Part shown: positions 37,254 through 46,891 of the stretch, piece after piece | Position numbering within the stretch: the stretch's first letter is position 1 | How the letters are laid out: every line of letters begins with the position of its first letter | NCBI GenBank assembly: GCA_003168265.1 | Contig: PMSV01000006.1 | Span: 62,001 to 126,000, forward strand | Source: Chitinophagaceae bacterium | GTDB taxonomy: Bacteria; Bacteroidota; Bacteroidia; Chitinophagales; Chitinophagaceae | DNA length: 64,000 nt | Direction: 5' to 3' | Position numbers and translations under genes: made by a program | Notes under the pieces: generated by a model | Told to the model about the DNA's origin: nothing | Seen by the model: only the letters and a program-made list of their open reading frames with translations | Database searches by the model: none

Positions 37254-38273
37254 TCAATTAACAAAGACTGAATTGGCAACGGCCGTAGAGCCCAGAATAT
37301 ATACAGTTCCGTTTTTCCAATAGCAAGCATTTTGGTTGCTGAATCCGGCAACATACACATCGCTTCCATTGACAAATATGGAATTGGCGTCTGAATTGCC
37401 CGGAGCCGTTTCCAGGATGGTAGCGACCCCATCTTTCCAGTAAATTGCTACGCTAAAACCATTGATGCTCTGGTTGCCGCATGCATAAACATCAGTTCCG
37501 GATAAATAAATGTCATGGGCCTGCGAATTTCCTCCACCGGAAGATGGAAGGCTGACCGCGTTGCCGTCCTTCCAATAGGCAGCCTGTACATAATTGCTAT
37601 CGGCAATTTCACCTGTCACATAAATATCAGTTCCGGAACTGGCAACTGAAGAAGCGATGGTATTAGGAGCTGCTGAAATGCCGGTTTCCTTTCCATTCAT
37701 CCAATAACAGGCGCCGCTGGAGCCATAGCCTGCCGCGAGTATATTGTTGCCTGAAACAGTGATTGAATTGGCCGAGCAGGGAATGGTCTGCACAGAATCC
37801 AGATAAGGAATAGAATCCAGATAGGATGGCGTTCCATTTGTCCAGAGCACGGCATAGGTTGAATATCCCGGGGACTGGTTGCCAGTCGCTCCCGCAACGT
37901 AAACCGTGGAACCTGATACATTGATGGCGTTCAGGTATCCCAGGCCACTCGGGTCCGGAACGGTTAGAAAATTGGCCTGTCCATTCTTCCAATAAACCGG
38001 GATATTTCCAAAGCCATTCACAAAAACCGCTCCTGCGATATATACATCGCTTCCATTCACAAAAATAGCATTAGCCGAACTGATCGAATCGCTCGTTAAG
38101 GTCACAGAGATCCCATTATTCCAAAGCATCCCCGAATAGGCGGATGTTCCGGCGATATAAACATTAGATGCAGTCTCGGGAAAGCTCGTTACTTTTTTAC
38201 AGGCCGGGAGCACAATCGTTATTAAGGCCAAAAGGCCGATCAATTGGAATCTTAGTTCGGGGTATTTGTTCAT
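37254..38273 (-). CDS. Repeat lipoprotein, propeller-like
   Basis: 339 residues with lipobox Cys25 (IVLPAC). The mature part is built of about seven repeats of 40-48 residues, each with a G-(S/T)-D-(V/I)-Y-V/I-A/C-G strand and an aromatic YWKNG or LWTNG strand. The pattern fits a beta-propeller or similar closed beta repeat. The repeats are well conserved with each other, indicating recent internal duplication. It is exported and surface- or periplasm-facing, with no catalytic motif. Confidence 0.75.
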   Translation of the reverse strand: MNKYPELRFQLIGLLALITIVLPACKKVTSFPETASNVYIAGTSAYSGMLWNNGISVTLTSDSISSANAIFVNGSDVYIAGAVFVNGFGNIPVYWKNGQANFLTVPDPSGLGYLNAINVSGSTVYVAGATGNQSPGYSTYAVLWTNGTPSYLDSIPYLDSVQTIPCSANSITVSGNNILAAGYGSSGACYWMNGKETGISAAPNTIASSVASSGTDIYVTGEIADSNYVQAAYWKDGNAVSLPSSGGGNSQAHDIYLSGTDVYACGNQSINGFSVAIYWKDGVATILETAPGNSDANSIFVNGSDVYVAGFSNQNACYWKNGTVYILGSTAVANSVFVN

Positions 38274-38469
38274 CAGGGAAAATTGAATGATTCGGTTGTT
38301 TAGTTTGGGGTCCTTAGTCCTTGGGGCACCATACCGGGAAATAACCTAATCCATAAACGTCATAAAGGAGATTTTCTTATATGAAGGGCTCAAATGACAT
38401 GACAGTTGGTCCATTAATTAAATAAATGACTATGAATAGATTATAGACTGTTTGCTTTAAATTTACCAG

Positions 38470-39495
38470 ATGAAAATTCGCTATTGGCATTACAACCTAA
38501 GGTTCAGGTATCCTTTCACCATTTCCAAAGGCACAAAAACCTGCCAGCCTACCCTGATCGTAGAAATTGACCATTTGGGTCTAAAGGGCTATGGTGAAGC
38601 CCCGGCCATTAACTACTATGACATTACGGTGGAAAAAATGATCGCCGACCTTGAAAAATACCGGCCCATGATCGAAAAATTTGCCCTGACCACACCGGAC
38701 CGATATTGGCATTATCTTCATCACCTGATTCCAGGGAATCCTTTTTTGGTTTGCGCCCTTGATATAGCAGCCTGGGATCTTTTTGGGAAAATGCAACGCA
38801 AACCGCTATATGAAATCTGGAAACTGGATATGGCAAAAGCTCCTGTGACTGATTATACCATCGGTATGGACAGTATTGAACGGATGATCGAAAAAATCAA
38901 AGAAAAGCCATGGCCGGTTTATAAGATTAAGTTAGGAGGGGCCCGGGACATGGAAATTATAGAAGTCCTTCGCGAAAAAACGGGAGCGGGGATCCGGGTA
39001 GATGCAAATGCCGCCTGGCAGATGGGGGATATGATGAAAATCCTTCCCTCACTCCGGGAAGCCAGGGTCGAACTCATTGAACAACCTCTGGCGAAGGATG
39101 ATTGGGATGGGATGAAGGAACTTTACCGGCAATCCGAAATTCCCCTTATAGCAGACGAATCCTGTGTCTATGAAAAAGGCGTCGAAAAATGCCCCGGACA
39201 TTTTCATGGGATCAATATCAAGCTCACCAAATGCGGCGGAATCACCCCAGCCTTACGGATGATTGAAAGGGCGCGACAGTTGAACCTTCAGATAATGCTT
39301 GGATGCATGAACGAAAGCAGCATCGGAAGCGCAGCAATGGCGAATCTCTCTCCCCTGGTCGATTATCTTGATATGGACGGTCCTTTGCTTCTGGCCGATG
39401 AAATCGCAACCGGGATTAGTTATGATTATGGAAAATTCACGCTGTCCGGCAAACCGGGCCTTGGTGTCGAGCCCAAAGATCAAAGCCTGAATTAG
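38470..39495 (+). CDS. Dipeptide epimerase (enolase superfamily, L-Ala-D/L-Glu type)
   Basis: 341 residues. MLE-like barrel with catalytic Lys in YKIKLGG, metal ligands in RVDANAAW (Asp), ELIEQPL (Glu) and IADESC (Asp), and the second Lys in INIKLTKCGG. The substrate-determining C-terminus has GCMNESSIG and YLDMDGPLLLADE, characteristic of L-Ala-D/L-Glu epimerases. These recycle murein tripeptide-derived dipeptides, but other dipeptide specificities exist. The stop codon is just upstream of the tRNA-Pro promoter. Confidence 0.92.
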   Translation: MKIRYWHYNLRFRYPFTISKGTKTCQPTLIVEIDHLGLKGYGEAPAINYYDITVEKMIADLEKYRPMIEKFALTTPDRYWHYLHHLIPGNPFLVCALDIAAWDLFGKMQRKPLYEIWKLDMAKAPVTDYTIGMDSIERMIEKIKEKPWPVYKIKLGGARDMEIIEVLREKTGAGIRVDANAAWQMGDMMKILPSLREARVELIEQPLAKDDWDGMKELYRQSEIPLIADESCVYEKGVEKCPGHFHGINIKLTKCGGITPALRMIERARQLNLQIMLGCMNESSIGSAAMANLSPLVDYLDMDGPLLLADEIATGISYDYGKFTLSGKPGLGVEPKDQSLN

Positions 39496-39496
39496 T

Positions 39497-39526
39497 TTGC
39501 CGTGAGCCCATTTATGTTTAGATTTG
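39497..39526 (+). promoter_or_regulatory. Promoter of tRNA-Pro
   Basis: TTG (39497-39499) and TAGATTTG (39519-39526) with a 19-nt spacer: an exact match to the Bacteroidota consensus. The -7 box ends 23 nt before the tRNA 5' end. Confidence 0.75.
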
Positions 39527-39549
39527 CGATCCTGCCGAAATGCAGGTTT

Positions 39550-39623
39550 CGGGATGTAGCGCAGCCCGGTAGCGCATCACGTTCGGGACGTGGGGGCCGC
39601 TGGTTCGAATCCAGTCATCCCGA
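39550..39623 (+). tRNA. tRNA-Pro(CGG)
   Basis: 74 nt fold as a full cloverleaf. The acceptor stem is CGGGATG with CATCCCG, and the D stem GCGC with GCGC. The anticodon stem TCACG pairs with CGTGG around loop TTCGGGA, giving anticodon CGG (codon CCG). The T stem GCTGG pairs with CCAGT around TTCGAAT, with discriminator A. CCA is not encoded. The 3' part of this gene recurs twice downstream. Confidence 0.95.
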
Positions 39624-39624
39624 C
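39608..39624 (+). repeat. tRNA-Pro 3'-end direct repeat, copy 1 (in the tRNA gene)
   Basis: AATCCAGTCATCCCGAC covers the T-stem 3' strand and acceptor 3' strand of tRNA-Pro. It is the same sequence as at 39796-39812 and, for 15 bases, at 43875-43889. The position is typical of an attachment core used by tyrosine integrases. Confidence 0.7.
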
Positions 39625-39781
39625 AGACACAATCAATATAACCTCCACCTTGGTGGAGGTTTTTTGCGTTCGAGCCGGACGCGTCGAGCTTGCTCGATTA
39701 CGGAAGGCGAGATAAGCAAAAAAAGCCCGTTAGGGCTTTGTTGATTGTGTATAGGCCTCCCCCCTTTGGATGGCCGAGCGC
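39620..39781 (+). repeat. 162-bp dispersed element, copy 1
   Basis: It is near-identical to 41323-41483 (161 bp). Few differences are visible: TATA versus AAA after CACAATCAA, one A/G and one C/T. The unit has inverted ends ACACAATCAA (39628 on) and TTGATTGTGT (near 39740-39750), two hairpin terminators and a TCGAGCTTGCTCGA hairpin in the middle. It contains no ORF of its own that looks real. It begins at the tRNA 3' end. Confidence 0.75.
39640..39664 (+). terminator. Terminator of tRNA-Pro, inside the dispersed element
   Basis: ACCTCCACC pairs with GGTGGAGGT across a two-base loop and is followed by TTTTTT. The same hairpin occurs in element copy 2 near 41342-41364. A second hairpin (AAAGCCC-GTTA-GGGCTTT) lies at about 39722-39740. 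Confidence 0.85.
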
Positions 39782-39795
39782 TTTAGCGCGAAGGC

Positions 39796-39812
39796 AATCC
39801 AGTCATCCCGAC
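39796..39812 (+). repeat. tRNA-Pro 3'-end direct repeat, copy 2
   Basis: A 17-base exact match to 39608-39624. The upstream bases do not form a tRNA, so it is a 3'-end fragment only. A distinct terminator follows at once (39814-39845). Confidence 0.7.
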
Positions 39813-39813
39813 G

Positions 39814-39845
39814 AACTGTCCGGCTTGCCGGACAGTTTCTTTTTG
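39814..39845 (+). terminator. Terminator following tRNA-Pro fragment copy 2
   Basis: A ten-base-pair stem AACTGTCCGG with CCGGACAGTT and a four-base loop (CTTG), then TTCTTTTT. The hairpin differs from the one after copy 1, although both follow the same tRNA 3' end. Confidence 0.85.
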
Positions 39846-39856
39846 TAGGTTGAAGA

Positions 39857-41191
39857 CTAATATTTTAGATGGCAATACAAGTCAATTTCCTTCTCAGCAT
39901 CATCTAACCCCATATCCTTGGCTGAATTAAAATCTTCGCAGGCTTTGCTTTTAAGTTTTACTTTAATTTCACATTTTCCTCTATAGTAAAAATATATAGC
40001 ACTGTCAGAATTAAATTCGATCGCCTTGGTAAAATCGTCGATAGCTTGGTGCCAACTTTCCATATGGAAAAAAGCCAATACTCTATTAAAATAACCTATC
40101 GCATCATTTGGCTCAAGATTAATTTTTTTTGTAAAATCAATAACGGAATTATCGTAATTTTTCTATGCAAGCCTCACAATTCCTCTTTCATTGTAAAAAT
40201 CCGGATCATTTGGTTTTAAAATTATTGCTTCATTTAAATCGCTTAAGGCTGAATCGTATTGATGAGAATGGCACCTAAATTTTCCTCTCTCAAAAAAGCA
40301 AGTGCTATTTTTCTGATTCATATTAACGGCTTCATCGAACCATTTTGAAGCCAATTCTTTGTTATTTAGTTTTGAGTAAATCATTGCTATATATAAATAA
40401 GCGATTTCATCTTTTGGGTTTAAGATACAAGATTTTATGAAATCATTCAATGAGTTATTAAAATCATTTAATTTATATCTTAATAAGCCTCTTTCGTAGT
40501 AGGCATCTCCGTCGTTTATATTTAGCCGTATAGATTTTGTGTAATCTTTTATAGCTTCTTTAAAATCCCCCATTCTTCTTCTGGTATTACCTCTATTATA
40601 AAAAGCTAATGAATAGTTCGGATTCAATTTTATTGCATGATTGTAATTTAAAACTGCTTCTTTGAAATTTCCTAAATCATCAAACAAATTTCCTCGTGAT
40701 AAATATACATCAGGGTCTGAAGGGTCGAATTTTAAAGATTTGTTGTAATCACTCATCGCCCCATTATAATCTTTTAGCTCTTTCCTTGTTTGCCCTCTAT
40801 TATAATAAGCAAGAGCATATTCAGGGTTTAGCTTAATTGCTAAATTGAAATTTACAAGTGCTCCATTGAACTCCTTTAATTTTATTAATGATTTTGCTTT
40901 AGCCACGTAGGCTCTCTCATCACCTGAATTCAGGTCTATGGATTTATCGTAATCTTTTATAGCATCTTTATAACTACCTAACGCCGCTTTTGCAAGACCC
41001 CTTTCAATGTAGCATCTATGAAATGCAGGTTTTTGTTCTATTTCTAAATTGTATTCTTTAATAGCACCTTTGTAATCTCCCGAATCGTACTTTTTCATGC
41101 CGTTATCAAGATGCGTATCGTTTTTATGTTGAGCTATTAAAAAGGGGGGAAGTAAAATCAAAACCCATATGATGCGAAAAGGCTTAATCAT
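39857..41191 (-). pseudogene. Exported TPR protein gene broken by an in-frame TAG
   Basis: One continuous frame encodes a signal peptide (WVLILLPPFLIAQ) and at least ten TPR repeats, such as RGQTRKELKDYNGAMSDYNK. It is interrupted by TAG at 40163-40165. The frame resumes at once with KNYDNSVIDFTKKINLEPND and continues in phase to the real stop at 39857. The TAG falls where other repeats have Leu or Met (RKELKDY, RRRMGDF), so TTG-to-TAG is the simplest origin. The gene is markedly AT-rich compared with its neighbours. The start at 41191 (MIKPF) keeps the signal peptide; ATG 41272 is also in frame. The truncated first 340 residues might still be made. Confidence 0.75.
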
Positions 41192-41322
41192 ACACAATAA
41201 ATAAGGCATTAATTGAACCTTAAAGTAATAAAATAAGAGGTAGTTTACAAAAATTGGATAACTAATATTCACAAACCCTTTTCAAATCATTAATAACGTA
41301 GTTCGAACTCAGGCTACCAAAG

Positions 41323-41483
41323 CCGACAGACACAATCAAAAAACCTCCACCTTGGTGGAGGTTTTTTGCGTTCGAGCCGGACGCGTCGAGCTTGCTCGAT
41401 TACGGAAGGCGAGATAAGCAAAAAAGGCCCGTTAGGGCTTTGTTGATTGTGTATAGGCCTCCCTCCTTTGGATGGCCGAGCGC
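41323..41483 (+). repeat. 162-bp dispersed element, copy 2
   Basis: It is about 97-98% identical to copy 1 by eye over 161 bases, including both terminator hairpins. The bases just before it (GTTCGAACTCAGGCTACCA at about 41300-41318) look like the 3' end of another tRNA with CCA. This copy may therefore also have lain behind a tRNA gene. Confidence 0.75.
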
Positions 41484-41668
41484 AGTTCATCCAGCAGAAT
41501 AAACTAGTTGAAACCAATACAAGATCAGCTATCCGATCAGATGCCACGGCTTGGTTCGCTCCAGGAAAGAATTTGCGGACCTTAGCGCCCACAGAAAATA
41601 GCCAAGGATCTGTTTACTTTGAGGATACTCTAACAGGGAAAATGTTTATTTACGAAATACAGCTTTAG
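41484..41668 (+). pseudogene. Fragment of unidentified gene (C-terminal part)
   Basis: An open frame starting inside the repeat element continues after it with a protein-like C-terminus of about 60 residues (SDATAWFAPGKNLRTLAP, then VYFEDTLTGKMFIYEIQL). The abrupt join at the repeat end suggests the 5' part of the gene was lost. The family was not recognised. Confidence 0.3.
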
Positions 41669-41692
41669 TTGCCGGCAATCACAAAACAGGGT

Positions 41693-41932
41693 TTAGGCAT
41701 TTGCTGCTATATGCCAAAGGGTATCGGCACTTAGGTCAATATTATATTCCTTCCATTCTATAAAATACCCTTGATTCGAGAGCGTAGAGGAAAATACGCG
41801 TGGATCCAGGAGGGGTTTAAACGCTTCTGCACTTAAGTATGGCTTGATATCCGCAATTTTCTTGCTGCCGTCATTAAAAAGACATTCAAGTCGGAAATCA
41901 CTTAGTGCCTTTATGTTAGTAATTGTTCGCAT
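41693..41932 (-). CDS. DUF2442 protein (antitoxin-like)
   Basis: 79 residues with the DUF2442 fold pattern: a beta strand LSDFRLECLFNDGSKKIADI, then KPLLDPRVFSSTLSNQGYFI and the ending EYNIDLSADTLWHIA. DUF2442 genes usually follow a DUF4160 gene in a small toxin-antitoxin-like pair. Here the DUF4160 gene directly upstream is reduced to a fragment, with its stop one base before this ATG (TAAG ATG). Confidence 0.85.
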   Translation of the reverse strand: MRTITNIKALSDFRLECLFNDGSKKIADIKPYLSAEAFKPLLDPRVFSSTLSNQGYFIEWKEYNIDLSADTLWHIAANA

Positions 41933-41933
41933 C

Positions 41934-42075
41934 TTATTTCAACGCTTCAATTTTAAAAACCTGCTGTCCTTCTACTGCCAGCTTCCAGTCCGCCATCAAT
42001 TCGTCTTTGTGTATTTCAATCCATGCAATGACGAGCTTCAATTTGTCCTTAGGAATCGCAGATTTTTCTCTCACT
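41934..42075 (-). pseudogene. DUF4160 C-terminal fragment
   Basis: The minus-strand frame ending at 41934 reads KSAIPKDKLKLVIAWIEIHK and then DELMADWKLAVEGQQVFKIE, the C-terminal half of DUF4160. The N-terminal half, expected to add about 40-50 residues, is absent. Its place is taken by the 3' end of the RibD-like gene in another frame. No start codon with a plausible leader exists. Confidence 0.7.
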
Positions 42076-42628
42076 GTTTCAAATAATGAAGCGCAACAGT
42101 TCCTGATTTAAAAGTCTTTGACTCAACAAGTTTTATTTGTAATTTCTCCTCCAGGCTGATGCCTTCCAACAACCGTCTCCCTTCTCCTGCGATTACCGGG
42201 TGAACGACAAAATGATATTCATCAATCAGACCAAGCTGTATAAGTTGCGAGGGAATATCTGCACCACCGGTTAGTATATAACTACCTTGTTCCTGTTTCA
42301 ATTTTAGTATTTCGTCTTTAAGGTTCGTACGAACGATTTCCGTGTTTTTCCCTTCAGCTTTGTCCAGCGTTTTTGAAAAAACAATAATTTTCTTGGAGTC
42401 AAACGCCTGAGCAAATTCGATATCTGCTTTTGTCTCACCGGAAGGGTTCTTTGCGATGTCGGGCCAATAAGGAACCATCAATTGATAGGTTTTTCGCCCG
42501 TAGACGAGCAGGTCAGCATTTCGCACAAGGTCCGTATGGAATTCAAACATTTCTACTTCAGGGATCATTTTGGTATGGTCGCAACAGCCATCGATGGTAA
42601 GGTTGATTGCGTAGATTAGTTTTCTCAT
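42071..42628 (-). CDS. RibD C-terminal / DHFR-like reductase, paralogue A
   Basis: 185 residues of the RibD_C/dihydrofolate reductase-like fold. Seen: MRKLIYAINLTIDGCCDHTK, DLLVYGRKTYQLMVPYW, IIVFSKTL, GSYILTGGADIPSQLIQLGL and HPVIAGEGRRLLEG (the NADPH-site pattern). The substrate is unknown; such proteins are common accessory reductases in Bacteroidota. It is clearly paralogous to 43982-44542, including shared sequence just past the stop. The 3' end has overrun a DUF4160 gene. Confidence 0.9.
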   Translation of the reverse strand: MRKLIYAINLTIDGCCDHTKMIPEVEMFEFHTDLVRNADLLVYGRKTYQLMVPYWPDIAKNPSGETKADIEFAQAFDSKKIIVFSKTLDKAEGKNTEIVRTNLKDEILKLKQEQGSYILTGGADIPSQLIQLGLIDEYHFVVHPVIAGEGRRLLEGISLEEKLQIKLVESKTFKSGTVALHYLKQ

Positions 42629-42729
42629 CTGATTGCTTTTAGTTTTAATTTCTTCAGGTCCTGGTGATGCTGATCATTTTCAGGATTTTTGAATATGTTC
42701 GTCTTTGTATATTTCTATCCAATAATTAC

Positions 42730-43074
42730 TTATGAAACAAATGCCAGGATAATAACAATTTCTTTTTCTAGCTGATCCAGATTTAAATGTATTATATCTC
42801 ACATTATCGTATCGTCAATACCGAAATAATCGTGGATAATGAAGTTCCTGAAATCTTTCACTTCTCGCCAGTCAACAGAAGGATATTTATCCCTGAAAGA
42901 TTTGTCAATTCTTGCAACTGCTTCTCCAATAATTGAAAAATTCCGTTCTACGGCGTGCTTGGTTTTAAGATCACACAAGTACATATCAAAAGTTATACCT
43001 CTTGTAAAATCCTTTATGTTGCCGATGGCTTCGATAATATCCTGAAGCAATGACGGGATATCCCTTTCAGACAT
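42730..43074 (-). pseudogene. hepT: HepT (HEPN toxin) gene with an in-frame TGA
   Basis: The frame from ATG 43074 carries the HEPN catalytic motif R-x4-H-x-Y as RNFIIHDYFG and stops at TGA (42799-42801) after 91 residues. Without changing frame it goes on with DIIHLNLDQLEKEIVIILAF to a TAA at 42730. HepT proteins normally have Trp at that point (GID..IVWDI), so TGG-to-TGA explains the break. The last helix would be lost, although the catalytic motif is retained. It overlaps mntA by 8 bp. Confidence 0.75.
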
Positions 43075-43357
43075 GAATCAGGCTTTTTTCCACGAAAGGA
43101 AGATAACGAGGCTTGATAGCCCGGCGGGAAACAAGATCAATTTTTTGATTGAATAGGTCTTCTAATTCGTGCGCTAATTTGATAAACCCGATCCCAATGC
43201 GACCATTAAAATCAACTAGTATGTCAATATCGCTTTTTTCATTATAGTCTCCGCGAGCATAGGAGCCAAATAACCCCAATTCGGAAATAGGATAACGCCC
43301 CTGCAATTCAGGCTTTTTCAGGCTTAGTAAGTCTAATATCTTCTCTTTAGTGTACAT
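43067..43357 (-). CDS. mntA: MntA-type nucleotidyltransferase antitoxin
   Basis: 96 residues of a minimal nucleotidyltransferase with the GSYARGDYNEKSDIDILVDF signature (GSx10DxD). In MntA/HepT systems this protein AMPylates HepT to block its RNase activity. It looks intact. The partner hepT follows with an 8-bp overlap but contains a nonsense codon, so the module may be dead or attenuated. Confidence 0.9.
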   Translation of the reverse strand: MYTKEKILDLLSLKKPELQGRYPISELGLFGSYARGDYNEKSDIDILVDFNGRIGIGFIKLAHELEDLFNQKIDLVSRRAIKPRYLPFVEKSLIHV

Positions 43358-43551
43358 ATAGCAAACTTACAAAAAAACTGTCGTCTAGGCAAATGGATAG
43401 ATTCAGGTTGCACTGCGTCCTGAATTGAAAGATCCCTACCATTGGTCCCGTCAATGGCAGTTATACTGGAACGGGCCCGGCTTGTCCAGGAAATAGTTAC
43501 AGGCTCGGCCCTTTCTTTTTCTTCTTTTTGCGGCGGTAAGCATCCGTAAAC

Positions 43552-43908
43552 TCATAAGGTCAGCCACCTTCTGTTTCGATTGGTTTTAATAATTCCAGTA
43601 CCAGGGAGGTAAAACCTGTCTATTTTGCGGTACCGGAATAGGGTGCGCCGATTATTGGGTGGCAAATTTAATAAGAATCGCTCTTTTCCTATCATTAGGG
43701 GAAAGCAATGGGGCAAGTTGTCTACGACGGCCTGGTAGATCTTGTACCGGTTTACCTCTGACTGGCTGAGTGACAAAGAGAACCAGGTCGAAAGAAGATA
43801 TTTTGGTGGGTGAGCCGGTCCGTTTTCAAAATCAGAAAACCATATCCACGAAAGCTTTCTAAGATTTTTCGTCGTCCAGTCATCCCGACTTATTAAATGG
43901 ATTTTCAC
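43552..43908 (-). other. Doubtful ORF, likely degenerate DNA
   Basis: 118-codon frame with no recognised domain. Its N-terminus runs through the third tRNA-Pro 3'-end repeat (read as SRDDW), which makes it an unlikely natural start. Other frames of the same strand contain protein-like scraps (SLVLELLKPIETEGG and YEFTDAYRRKKKKKKGPSL), suggesting a frame-scrambled remnant of one or more genes. Confidence 0.25.
43875..43889 (+). repeat. tRNA-Pro 3'-end direct repeat, copy 3
   Basis: TCCAGTCATCCCGAC matches the tRNA-Pro 3' end over 15 bases. It is followed 24 bases later by its own hairpin terminator. It is probably the far end of the inserted region. Confidence 0.65.
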
Positions 43909-43912
43909 TAAG

Positions 43913-43948
43913 AGCTGTCCAAACAGATTTAGGACAGCTTTTTTATTC
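43913..43948 (+). terminator. Terminator following tRNA-Pro fragment copy 3
   Basis: AGCTGTCC (43913-43920) pairs with GGACAGCT (43932-43939), followed by six T residues. No plus-strand gene lies upstream except the tRNA fragment, so it may be the original tRNA-Pro terminator displaced by insertion. Confidence 0.75.
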
Positions 43949-43981
43949 TATTTAGCAAAAAGTAATGTTGGAATTTTTCTC

Positions 43982-44542
43982 TCATTGTTTCAAGTACTGA
44001 AGAGCAACACGCCCCGACTTAAAAACCGTCGACTCAACAAGTTTTAATTGTAATTTCTCTTCCAGATTGATACCTTCAAACAAGCGTCTCCCTTCTCCTA
44101 ATATAATCGGGAGAATCACAAAATGATATTCATCTATCAGACCAAGCTCTTCAAGTTGTAAAGGAATTGTTATACCAGTGGTCAAAATACTCTTTCCTTG
44201 TTCTTGTTTCAATTTAAGTATTTCGTCTTGAAGGCCCGTACGAACAATTCTCGTTTTTTTCCCTTCAGAGCTGTCTAATGATTTTGAGAAAACAATAATT
44301 TTGTTGATGGCGTCAAATGCCTGGGCAAATTCGTAATCTGCTTTTGGTTGCCCGGAAGGGTTTTTCGCCATATCGGGCCAATAAGGAACCATCAATTGAT
44401 AAGTTATACGCCCGTAAAGGAATGTGTCAACATCTTGAGTAAGCTGCGTAAAATACTCATGAGTTTCTTCATCAGTATTGAATTTGGTATGGTCGCAGTA
44501 GCCATCTATGGTCGTAGTGATAGCAAATATCAGATTTCTCAT
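43982..44542 (-). CDS. RibD C-terminal / DHFR-like reductase, paralogue B
   Basis: 186 residues, closely similar to the 42071-42628 protein along its whole length (for example ITYQLMVPYWPDMAKNPSG and LPIILGEGRRLFEGINLEEK). The differences are scattered, including a glycine lost in the cofactor segment: SYILTGGADI in paralogue A against SILTTGITI here. That may weaken nucleotide binding. The pair flanks the MntA/HepT module, which suggests a duplication. Confidence 0.88.
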   Translation of the reverse strand: MRNLIFAITTTIDGYCDHTKFNTDEETHEYFTQLTQDVDTFLYGRITYQLMVPYWPDMAKNPSGQPKADYEFAQAFDAINKIIVFSKSLDSSEGKKTRIVRTGLQDEILKLKQEQGKSILTTGITIPLQLEELGLIDEYHFVILPIILGEGRRLFEGINLEEKLQLKLVESTVFKSGRVALQYLKQ

Positions 44543-44775
44543 TTTATTGCGATTTATTTTAATTTTCCCTAAAATAGTAAATTTTCAAGGTTAATTTTTA
44601 TTGCCTGTTTAAATACCGAATAGGAAATGTCCAGAAACCTTTTTTCGATTCTTCATGTTTCTAAGAAATGTTGGTAGCCGATAAACTCCCGTCCTCATTT
44701 GGGAGATATTTTGGACTAATTTTCTAGTTTGGATCGAATGTTCAAATCACTAAATTCTTTCAATTTGGGTCAGGA

Positions 44776-45053
44776 ATGGGTCAGAGAAATAAGAACTCCA
44801 AGGGTAAGGTCAGCATCACTAATGTAGAACAGATGCTACGGGTCCCATGGCGATATAACGGTGAGCGGTACTCGTTAAATCTCCCCTACGCTTATACGGA
44901 CTACAATCTGCCCTGGCTACCACCGTCGCCATACAGATCAAGCTGGACATGCTCAAAGGTTGCAGTCGCTGGCAGGCGAACGACCAGCATGTAGTGCTGT
45001 GTGACGATAGCATGGTGGTTTGCCCCATGTTGGGACGCGGCTGCGGGCGGTAA
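44776..45053 (+). pseudogene. Frameshifted N-terminal remnant of a tyrosine integrase
   Basis: The frame from ATG 44776 gives KGKVSITNVEQMLRVPWRYN and GERYSLNLPY, matching the Arm DNA-binding domain (DUF3596 type) that begins some phage and ICE integrases. The continuation ATTVAIQIKLDMLKG lies in another frame from 44916, so there is at least one frameshift. No core-binding or catalytic domain follows; the frame ends at 45053 and an AraC gene occupies the space. It is a relic of the recombinase that could have acted at the tRNA. Confidence 0.55.
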
Positions 45054-45080
45054 GGCCAAAGCGCCAAAAAAACAGGCATT

Positions 45081-45959
45081 TCAAATAGCTGCAACATTTT
45101 TCATTGCCGAAGGACCTATTCCAAATCTCTGCTTGAAAACGCGGCTAAAATGCGACGGACTTTCAAAGCCGCTTTCGAAGGCAGCCTCTCCCACTGTCCT
45201 GTTCCGGTTGCGCATCAGATGCAGGGCATGGTGGAGGCGTTTTTCCAAAAGCCATTTACCGGGACTGCAGCCGAAGAGCTTTTCGAAATCGCGTTTGAAG
45301 GCGGAAAGGCTTCGGTTGCTTAATTCGGCGTAAACTTCCAACCTAAGGTTGTAGCAGAAATTATCTTCCATGACCCGATTAAGAGCTATAGCCTGCGGTT
45401 CATGCATCAATGAACAAAAATAGGATAAGAGATCCTTGTTCGCGGGGTTGTCGGCGATATTCAGCACGAGCTCTTTGAACTTGAGCTCCAGCAGCGCCGG
45501 GTCAGGATCCTTGGTCTCGGCGAAATAAGAGGACATAGAGATAAAGAAGCCCTTGAGTGTCTCATTGGATTCCAGCAACATGAGCGGTTCGAAATGCTGA
45601 TCGTATTGTGCCAGGAGCCTGCTTTTCATTTGTAAGGTCTGGCAGATGAACTCGTCTGGGATGAAAAACAGCATCACACAAAAACCCATATCAATGAATT
45701 GTTCCAGGATGAAACCGCCTTTCCTGACGAAAACACAGCTGTCCTTGCTAATGTCGTAAGAGCCATTAGCCGTGTGCCAGACCTTACGGCCATCGACCAC
45801 ATAGAAAAGGTAGTTGTACTGGGTCCACAGAGCCGAGAAACGGGTCTTCATCATCCGGGCTTCCATAGGACAACTAAAAGCCGTGATCAGCGAACCGTTG
45901 CAATCGAATTGCCTGTAGTATTGAGGGTGAAGTAACACCCGTTCAAGGAAGTTAACCAT
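45081..45959 (-). CDS. AraC-family transcriptional regulator
   Basis: 292 residues from ATG 45959 (the frame also allows TTG 45992). The N-terminal part resembles a cupin-like sensor (RKVWHTANGSYDISKDSCVF). Residues about 190-290 hold the paired HTH: RLEVYAELSNRSLSAFKRDF (first), then VGEAAFESGFESPSHFSRVF and KQRFGIGPSAM (second). It is divergent from a methyltransferase gene with about 110 bp between starts. A 10-bp palindrome GGACATGTCC (46029-46038) between them is a possible binding site. Confidence 0.9.
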   Translation of the reverse strand: MVNFLERVLLHPQYYRQFDCNGSLITAFSCPMEARMMKTRFSALWTQYNYLFYVVDGRKVWHTANGSYDISKDSCVFVRKGGFILEQFIDMGFCVMLFFIPDEFICQTLQMKSRLLAQYDQHFEPLMLLESNETLKGFFISMSSYFAETKDPDPALLELKFKELVLNIADNPANKDLLSYFCSLMHEPQAIALNRVMEDNFCYNLRLEVYAELSNRSLSAFKRDFEKLFGCSPGKWLLEKRLHHALHLMRNRNRTVGEAAFESGFESPSHFSRVFKQRFGIGPSAMKNVAAI

Positions 45960-46072
45960 GGCACTTGAATTTACTATTTTTCCCCGGATCAATCAACTGG
46001 CCTTTTAAGTCAGAACATTGAGCCGGTGGGACATGTCCGGATACTGTAAAATGTCTATCCTTGTAAAAAAAT

Positions 46073-46891
46073 ATGAATCCAAACAAAGCATTATGGGAAA
46101 AAGGTGACTTCACAAAGATCGCTGAAAGTATGCGGGAAAGTGGGTCTAACCTAGTCGCTCAACTGGGTATATCCAAGGGAATGGAGGTGCTGGACCTCGG
46201 TTGTGGTGACGGCACAACGGCTATACCGGAGGCAAGACTTGGGGCGGAGGTCTTGGGGGTGGATATAGCCAGTAACCTGGTAGCAGCCGGAAATGCCCGG
46301 GCTCAGGCGGAAGGGCTGACCAACTGCAGATTCCAGGAAGGTGATGCCTCGGATTTGCATGAGTTGGCTGACGAAAGCTTCGACCTGGTCGTGAGCATTT
46401 TCGGGGCCATGTTCGCACCGAAGCCGATGGACGTTGCAAAGGAGATGGTCAGGGTTACCCGTCGGGGAGGAAGAATAGTTATGGGAAACTGGATCCCTGG
46501 GGACCCGACCCTTGCGTCGCAAATTCTGAAGATCAGTTCGGCTTATACCCCGCCTCCGCCGGAAGGGTTTATCAGCCCGATGTTATGGGGTGTGGAAGCC
46601 CAGGTAATTGAACGTTTCGGCCAAGCCGGCATAGATGATGCTACGATCTCGTTCTTGAAGGACAGCTTTCTTTTTAGCCTGGACTGTACGCCAGGACAGT
46701 TCGTCAATATTTTTCGGGATTACTACGGCCCAACGATAAATGCCTTCGCCGCCGCGGAAGAGGCCGGAAAGCAGGTAGCGCTTCAGCAGGAGTTGGAAGC
46801 GTTGTTCGTGCGGGAGAATAAGAGCGGTAGGAGTGACTTCATCTCGATTCGTGCGAATTTCCTACTTGTCACGGTTCATCGCACCATCTGA
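46073..46891 (+). CDS. Class I SAM-dependent methyltransferase
   Basis: 272 residues. Motif I VLDLGCGDGTTAIP, motif II VLGVDIASNLV, then FQEGDASDLHEL and VVSIFGAMFAPKP. A long C-terminal cap includes AQVIERFGQAGI and a FVNIFRDYYGPTINAF segment. It resembles small-molecule or UbiE/COQ5-type methyltransferases often found beside AraC regulators; the substrate is unknown. It is probably controlled by the divergent AraC protein. Confidence 0.88.
   Translation: MNPNKALWEKGDFTKIAESMRESGSNLVAQLGISKGMEVLDLGCGDGTTAIPEARLGAEVLGVDIASNLVAAGNARAQAEGLTNCRFQEGDASDLHELADESFDLVVSIFGAMFAPKPMDVAKEMVRVTRRGGRIVMGNWIPGDPTLASQILKISSAYTPPPPEGFISPMLWGVEAQVIERFGQAGIDDATISFLKDSFLFSLDCTPGQFVNIFRDYYGPTINAFAAAEEAGKQVALQQELEALFVRENKSGRSDFISIRANFLLVTVHRTI

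Follow-up and report, generated by a model that had tools for sequence, protein, structure and literature searches.

Mobile DNA classically integrates at the 3′ ends of tRNA genes. In Escherichia coli the tRNA genes of the tyrT and tyrV loci are followed by the tandem units of RtT RNA (rttR, RF00391), for which, to our knowledge, there is still no agreed function. Here we describe a comparable arrangement in a 64,000-nucleotide stretch of a Chitinophagaceae bacterium (assembly GCA_003168265.1, contig PMSV01000006.1; the whole stretch is called the window below, and positions are counted from its first letter). Directly behind the only tRNA gene of the window, a tRNA-Pro, lies a gene-free segment, unit A (39625–39812), that folds strongly and ends in a copy of the 3′ end of that tRNA. 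Units of the same architecture recur, often in tandem arrays, behind tRNAs of several isotypes in the Bacteroidota, share a covarying fold and a tail that starts in the T-loop, and match no Rfam 15 family in the loci searched. The explanation that we favor, and hold to be fairly probable, is that unit A belongs to a family of such units at tRNA 3′ ends that serve as trailers and terminators and reached their sites by insertion.

Repeated tRNA-Pro ends and the unit between them

The gene for tRNA-Pro(CGG) occupies 39550–39624 on the forward strand (ARAGORN; 62 bits with Rfam RF00005). Its last 17 nt, which reach from the T-loop to the base after the discriminator (AATCCAGTCATCCCGAC; tail copy 1, 39608–39624), recur exactly at 39796–39812 (tail copy 2), and a 15-nt copy ends at 43889 (tail copy 3, 43875–43889; two mismatches over 17 nt), all on the forward strand. 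An initial annotation of the window had pointed out these repeats, and they are real: allowing three mismatches, chance alone would give 0.15 matches to the tail in a sequence like the window, and in 100 shuffles three matches were never reached. Exact matches to the 15-mer are confined to these three places in the 4.30-Mb assembly; with at most one mismatch it occurs at six, of which three are in the window and three on contig C16, where they prove to be the end of a tRNA-Pro(GGG) gene and two further tail copies behind it in steps of 184–187 bp. No occurrence was found outside the tRNA-Pro loci, and this genome-wide uniqueness speaks against a chance origin of the repeats. The tRNA-Pro(GGG) gene is thus a second locus whose tail spacing matches that of the window, in which copies 1 and 2 are 188 bp apart with a structured unit between them.

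The hairpin terminators that had been annotated behind each tail copy are also present. A terminator scan lists those at 39640–39661 and 39813–39838; the third (43913–43945) is plain in the sequence, with a hairpin at 43913–43939 (AGCTGTCC ... GGACAGCT, then TTTTTT) whose 11-nt loop exceeds the 8-nt limit of the scan, and is hence absent from its output.

Unit A comprises five predicted helical elements on the forward strand (P1–P5) in 171 bp of gene-free DNA (39625–39795), or 188 bp when tail copy 2 is included. P1, formed by 39627–39637 and 39740–39750, encloses P2 (39640–39661), a hairpin followed by a T-run and therefore terminator-like; P3 (39662–39721), a long hairpin of that T-run with a downstream A-run and an inner TCGAGCTTGCTCGA hairpin; and P4 (39722–39739), a hairpin that is terminator-like on the opposite strand too. 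A C-rich linker leads on to P5 (39767–39801), a hairpin of the form GGAT..CC..GG..AATCC whose 3′ strand, AATCC, is at the same time the start of tail copy 2. The terminator scan lists hairpins in unit A in both directions. The predicted folding energy of 39625–39812 is −79.7 kcal/mol as against −54.7 kcal/mol in shuffled sequences (z −6.0, 0 of 200 shuffles), and folding with DNA parameters gives a similar result (z −6.1). About 150 bp of unit A are found again on the same strand at 41329–41483, with 97% identity overall and 99% over 142 nt; this second unit, unit B (41328–41483), has a truncated P5.

Recurrence at tRNA genes within the genome and across the phylum

Running ARAGORN on the neighborhoods of 41 tRNA matches (about 3 kb around each, or less where a contig ends) gave 41 distinct tRNA sequences, and we searched on both strands for the last 15 nt of each, allowing two mismatches. 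Four genes alone, those of Pro(CGG), Pro(GGG), Ser(TGA) and Leu(CAG), have further tail copies behind them by this search; the copies are exact and start 170–177 nt from the tRNA end; Pro(GGG) has a second extra copy at 357 nt. The units at these four genes each bear the tail of their own tRNA. Counting a Ser(GGA) unit whose tail has decayed, the same architecture is present in this one genome at Pro(CGG), Pro(GGG) (twice), Ser(TGA), Ser(GGA) and Leu(CAG), and behind Pro(TGG) and Leu(GAG) there are apparent partial units. When four Pro units alone were used to build a covariance model (R1), it scored the Ser and Leu units at 41–48 bits. Across an alignment of seven units, two-sided changes are seen in 38 of 58 pairs and 92.9% of the alignment cells pair, a result reached by none of 500 shuffles; when the partners are slid against each other pairing falls to 34–42%.

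The exact P5 pattern of the window had only one match in 146 other genomes of the family, at a place where no unit was seen by eye, so a looser covariance model was needed. Model R2, built from seven units without any tRNA body, was run with a match threshold of E 0.001 and, in both the family and the phylum search, with strict filters that lose weak matches. It found matches in 70 of 394 family genomes, representing 32 of 101 genera, and in 14 of 395 genomes sampled across the phylum (the source genome being included in both counts); ten of the latter lie outside the family, three of them in another class. Besides the carriers, five searched genomes of the genus had no R2 match.

We examined 88 loci, taken from the best-scoring family matches downwards. 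They held 96 unit matches, from which three antisense matches, two from a doubly fetched locus and one identical copy were dropped, leaving 90 units. Seventy-one of the 90 begin within 12 nt of the end of a tRNA, which by ARAGORN isotype is Ser in 37 cases, Pro in 23, Gln in six, Leu in three, and Tyr and Met in one each. At the loci from the phylum search a tRNA stands directly upstream of the unit or array in 15 of 19, and here Lys, Arg, Val and Met are among the isotypes. In an alignment of 83 units, fitted to the model, two-sided changes occur in 53 of 57 pairs and 93.4% of the cells are paired, and on every measure none of 500 shuffles did as well.

The P5 motif GGATCRSCGNAGSYAATCC was also scanned in 84,980 species genomes. 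It gave at least 117 stretches, and the matches listed comprise 80 loci, sorted here by record title into 59 from Bacteroidota (including Chitinophagaceae, Flavobacteriaceae, Sphingobacteriaceae and Bacteroidales) and 21 others. Among the listed Bacteroidota loci, a tRNA on the same strand lies within 350 nt upstream in 36 of 59, as against three in the control (downstream or other strand); seven are too near the start of their stretch to be judged, and 19 have several copies. One of the loci in the scan (L266, 3221–3374, reverse strand) has four P5 hairpins spaced 45 bp apart behind a tRNA-Ser(GGA); the repeat there is minimal and consists of P5 and some 26 bp more. Only two of the 21 listed loci outside the phylum have a tRNA, and we take most of the other 19 to be chance matches. 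In these two a short P5-plus-tail stands 30–33 nt behind the tRNA, which is a tRNA-Met in a Gemmatimonadetes record (L221, 3008–3142) and a tRNA-Pro in Aurantiacibacter (L275, 2794–2940, reverse strand). The P5 motif was also present at 12 viral loci, ten of which have no match to the unit model at E 0.001.

A search of window positions 38–45 kb with Rfam 15 gave the tRNA, one sub-threshold match and nothing else. At 13 Bacteroidota loci the same search gave tRNA families, sub-threshold matches that overlap tRNAs, and one DUF805b match off the unit; a sub-threshold SpF41 match reaches about 40 nt into the unit behind a tRNA-Gln. A partial literature search, covering titles and the openings of abstracts, found no published description of the Bacteroidota units.

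Folding strand, occupied and empty sites, and the probably inserted segment

A fold that acts at the level of double-stranded DNA predicts that G-T and A-C mismatches are about equally frequent in its stems. In a duplex scan blind to G-U pairing, the ratio of G-T to A-C was 24:0 in P2 (p 1e-7), 26:1 in P3 (p 4e-7) and 10:4 in P1 (p 0.18), and in the covariance alignment the ratio of G-U to A-C was 24:11 in P1, 49:3 in P2, 49:16 in P3 and 16:6 in P5. On balance this suggests that it is the sense strand that folds, as RNA or as single-stranded sense DNA. Because two-sided changes are found in 53 of the 57 pairs and G-U outnumbers A-C in P2 and P3, the folded form is probably sense-strand RNA; the units thus show two marks of a structured RNA, compensatory change beyond chance and, in P2 and P3, a tolerance of G-U over A-C.

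A run of at least four T follows P2 in 76 of the 83 units (taking every window of these units, 10% have such a run), and in 77 of 83 P3 closes with an A-run, so that the unit contains a terminator-like hairpin in each direction. P2 fits the definition of an intrinsic terminator, a GC-rich hairpin and then a T-run, and on sequence grounds we call it terminator-like only.

How the tail relates to the local tRNA was scored in 63 units, which had to end in AATC (eight of the 71 were dropped because their motifs were unclear). Bases 58–61 agree with the local tRNA, largely by construction; beyond them, agreement is 0.97 at base 62 and 57 of 63 at base 63. P5 is thus adapted to the tRNA at its site, and decay affects the remainder of the copy. 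A full tail copy is exact in 17 of 71 units and has one to three mismatches in nine of 71, copies up to 250 nt further on being counted.

The GGAT/ATCC pairs of P5 are G-C, G-C, A-U and U-A in 72, 79, 82 and 83 of the 83 units, respectively. Such strong conservation would suit an alternative in which the fold acts as single-stranded DNA, P5 and the tail forming a recombination or transposition end, like attC or REP, and the units being non-autonomous mobile elements; filled and empty sites (described below), spread between tRNAs and the patchy occurrence of the units would all be expected. We consider this unlikely, since the excess of G-U over A-C argues for RNA, or at a minimum for a role of the sense strand alone, since P2 and P4 resemble ordinary terminators, and since the integrases of this genome and its three Y1 transposase fragments lie elsewhere. 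The Y1 (IS200-like) fragments score identically and stand at the ends of contigs C2, C7 and C18; they are probably one repeated element that breaks the assembly.

Whether units lie within otherwise continuous sites was assessed by comparing the 80 nt behind the last tail with 23 unit-less sites, each counted once, using 200 dinucleotide shuffles per comparison (60 composition shuffles in a first run). The stretch behind tail copy 3 of the window (43890–43969) aligns best, of the 23 sites, with the flank of a unit-less tRNA-Pro(CGG) in a congener (G150, L356), with a score of 58 and a shuffle maximum of 43, and the resemblance takes in both 43890–43912 and the terminator hairpin. Including this one, five filled places have matches of 54–59 with 0 of 200 shuffles as high, the others being L117 and L181 (both in G101), L145 (G147) and L139 (G145). 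Three control stretches of the window scored 19–34, which is not significant (25 to 194 of 200 shuffles as high). At five filled places the terminator of a unit-less site thus reappears behind the last tail, which suggests that the unit interrupts a site that is continuous apart from it. Tail copy 3 is thus probably the displaced original end of tRNA-Pro, as had been proposed. The same proposal offered the sequence behind copy 2 (from 39813) as a possible ancestral flank; it has no match at the unit-less sites (its score of 30 was equaled or exceeded in 60 of 200 shuffles). An empty tRNA-Pro site does exist in another congener, G167, but the right flank of the window is not syntenic there within the 16.6 kb read, so that no clean single-event junction is seen, and this site is separate from the flank match in G150. 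Among 29 tRNA-Pro loci of the genus, tail copies stand behind the tRNA in two (L357 and L358), L373 resembles a unit without a tail copy, three are cut by contig ends and the rest have none.

The relatedness of the units points in more than one direction. Within a single genome, units that follow different tRNA-Ser genes share 87–93% identity in G311 and 82–91% in G134, and between two congeners the Pro(GGG) units share 85%. For 84 units, nearest neighbors at 70% identity or more were at another tRNA of the same genome in 20 cases, at the same tRNA of another genome in 17 and at another tRNA of another genome in 25. Among 120 units with enough sequence behind them to judge, a further copy stands behind 41 and is complete in eight, clearly 5′-truncated in 24 (19 of which reach the 3′ end of the unit) and unclear in nine. 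These copies, together with the filled and empty sites, fit insertion and local amplification. The same data enter into a reading without mobility, in which the units are old, vertically inherited trailers, kept alike by gene conversion among tRNA-Ser or tRNA-Pro loci and multiplied by slippage at hairpins: the conserved Pro(GGG) units, the mixed neighbors and the truncated copies all agree with it, whereas the terminator that reappears at the five filled places does not, and we judge it improbable.

The 24 truncated copies, and the 19 of them that keep the 3′ end, are also what reverse transcription of an RNA containing tRNA and unit would leave. In retroviruses, reverse transcription of the tRNA primer stops near base 58, and the tail starts at A58 in the scored units, in part because units had to end in AATC. 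Truncation has simpler causes, however, eight further copies are complete and nine unclear, and CCA is found at the junction in just 13 of 71 tRNA ends (read by eye from the rows), while the six units in the source genome all lack it. An RNA intermediate is therefore very improbable, and retroviral-type priming with the CCA end of the tRNA was likewise put low given those 13 of 71 junctions.

The segment of 4.06 kb from tail copy 2 to tail copy 3 (39813–43874) contains, as annotated, accessory and broken genes. On the reverse strand lie a broken gene for a TPR-repeat protein (39857–41272; AT-rich, in two open reading frames (ORFs), 39857–40078 and 40163–41272), a DUF2442 protein (41693–41932), a dihydrofolate-reductase-like RibD_C gene (42071–42628) and a pair encoding a HepT-like RNase and a nucleotidyltransferase (42799–43357), all assigned by Pfam scan; unit B lies in the segment as well. 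We take the pair to resemble the HepT/MNT toxin–antitoxin systems. Systems of this type are often found on mobile DNA. Pfam scans covered 11 of the 12 ORFs of at least 60 aa in 39813–43908; six have families (the TPR gene in two pieces) and five have none. GC content is 30–41% in 39900–43499 and 42–51% in the other 600-base windows of 37500–46499, except for 36% at 44100–44699. Since the segment starts at copy 2 and ends at copy 3 with its ancestral-looking flank, larger DNA appears to have entered the site. Two RibD_C genes (42062–42651 and 43973–44565; 74–79% identical as DNA) flank tail copy 3, and a RibD_C gene also stands behind the unit in a viral contig (L195, 12124–12675).

Such a segment invites the explanation first given for the locus, that tyrosine recombinases with att sites in the T-loop left stacked islands, with unit A a remnant of one and 39813–43889 another. 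The tail repeats, the displaced end and the accessory or broken, mostly AT-rich cargo all speak for it. In two IMG/VR contigs (L195, 11710–11908; L194, 5150–5318, minus strand) a unit lies behind a bare tRNA-Ser-like tail with no tRNA body, the arrangement that a provirus integrated at the T-loop site would leave at its far end; the bare tail is that of the tRNA-Ser in L113, which suggests that phage integration can use the same tRNA stretch and push units off their tRNA. Against stacked islands, a six-frame search of the genome for tyrosine integrases found five, none in the segment and the nearest on the contig about 99 kb off (serine recombinases were not searched). The 188-bp segment, moreover, is a member of a covarying family that is often tandem and recurs behind many tRNAs, rather than a random island end. 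What survives of stacked integrase insertions is a displaced end and the entry of larger DNA; the evidence does not support the pair of tails at 39.61 and 39.80 kb as the mark of an ordinary integrase island, and as an account of the structured, recurrent 188-bp segment an integrase scar alone is rejected or put low. Taken as a whole, the island explanation is rather unlikely. Three of the five integrases, with frames of 410–420 aa, lie about 1 kb from tRNA-Lys (C18:2097–2525), tRNA-Ser(GCT) (C8:138286–138720) and tRNA-Asn (C12:24909–25385), and look like markers of ordinary tRNA islands elsewhere in the genome.

A proposed trailer and terminator model compared with known systems

In the explanation we favor, the unit would be transcribed as the 3′ trailer of its tRNA, with P2 and its U-run stopping most transcripts. 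Partial read-through, which we assume, would yield the whole P1–P5 RNA, whose end would be set by the tail copy with the terminator that follows it, while P4 with the A-run could stop transcription that enters from the other side. The unit would thus be a two-way terminator and trailer, alike in place and logic to RtT behind E. coli tyrT. Its DNA would enter exactly at the tRNA 3′ end and leave the stretch from T-loop to 3′ end on both sides, spreading mainly between isoacceptor genes. The tail repeats would then permit arrays and the entry of larger DNA; at this locus, the 4.06-kb stretch would have entered between copies 2 and 3 and moved the original tRNA end to 43875.

Several observations weigh against this explanation. 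Nineteen of the 90 units have no ARAGORN tRNA within 12 nt, although several of these sit behind a tRNA-like end or a tail that lacks its tRNA. The structure itself guided the fitting of alignments A6 and A8. The units are near-palindromic, and R1 accordingly awards as much as 37 bits to the reverse strand of the Pro units it was built from, not far below the scores of the Ser and Leu units; near-palindromy alone scores sizeably. The acceptor part of the tail copy has decayed in most units (match 0.44–0.65 per position). The strand asymmetry of P1 alone is not significant, and P4, a poorly aligned helix, leans the opposite way (13 G-U to 22 A-C). If P2 terminates well, P3–P5 would rarely become RNA. 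Of 11 filled loci besides the window, seven have a weak flank match (L129, 38, with 1 of 200 shuffles as high; L102, 33, 4; L357, 31, 9; L151, 32, 13) or none among the 23 unit-less sites (L126, L172 and L173). Finally, Pfam scans of ORFs and the six-frame tyrosine-integrase search linked no recombinase to the units of this genome.

A bolder extension is possible though doubtful: a phylum-wide class of gene-free mobile RNA elements on tRNA genes that enter behind a tRNA, take over its terminator, match P5 to the local T-stem and spread between isoacceptors by a recombinase acting in trans or through an RNA intermediate, with the E. coli tyrT repeats as a distant instance. At these known landing sites, tail repeats like those described here can be mistaken for island attachment sites. 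A large covarying family in another phylum, present at many isotypes and with sites both filled and empty, renders the kind of question posed by tyrT testable: of what use the trailer is to its tRNA, why copying of the tail starts at the T-loop, and by what route units without genes pass from one tRNA gene to another.

Of the systems we compared, tRNA islands with T-loop att sites share with this locus the repeats from T-loop to 3′ end, the displaced end and the cargo between; they differ in that the unit has no gene, is often tandem and has a covarying fold, and in that the window segment has no tyrosine integrase. REP/REPIN sequences and integron attC sites resemble the units in the short conserved hairpin (here P5) that ends a repeated gene-free unit. 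The units differ from both in being tied to tRNA ends, in the G-U excess that suggests RNA, and in having no linked tyrosine integrase or Y1 transposase in this genome.

The likeness to E. coli tyrT/tyrV is more detailed. There, tandem units of about 178 bp stand behind the tRNA, and each closes with a repeat of the tRNA 3′ terminus that runs from the T-loop and contains AATCC; the tail has its complement in a GGGGAAGGAT strand of the unit. Fold prediction for the E. coli locus, however, pairs GGGGAAGGAT with the upstream tail, the tRNA's own, and not with the downstream one, and no P1–P4 terminator module is seen; the annotation of the E. coli locus also includes a protamine-like ORF. The E. 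coli tRNA is a tRNA-Tyr, whereas the Bacteroidota units are found with Ser, Pro, Gln, Leu, Arg, Met, Cys, Val and Lys. Membership of the RtT family was rejected: RF00391 has no match up to E 0.1 in 13 Bacteroidota loci or up to E 1 in 38–45 kb of the window, and gives four matches of 133–138 bits in the E. coli control (L130). By this comparison the tyrT/RtT repeats, unlike the Bacteroidota units in sequence, inner structure and model, are nevertheless their closest analogue, alike in their place behind the tRNA and in the logic of the copied tail.

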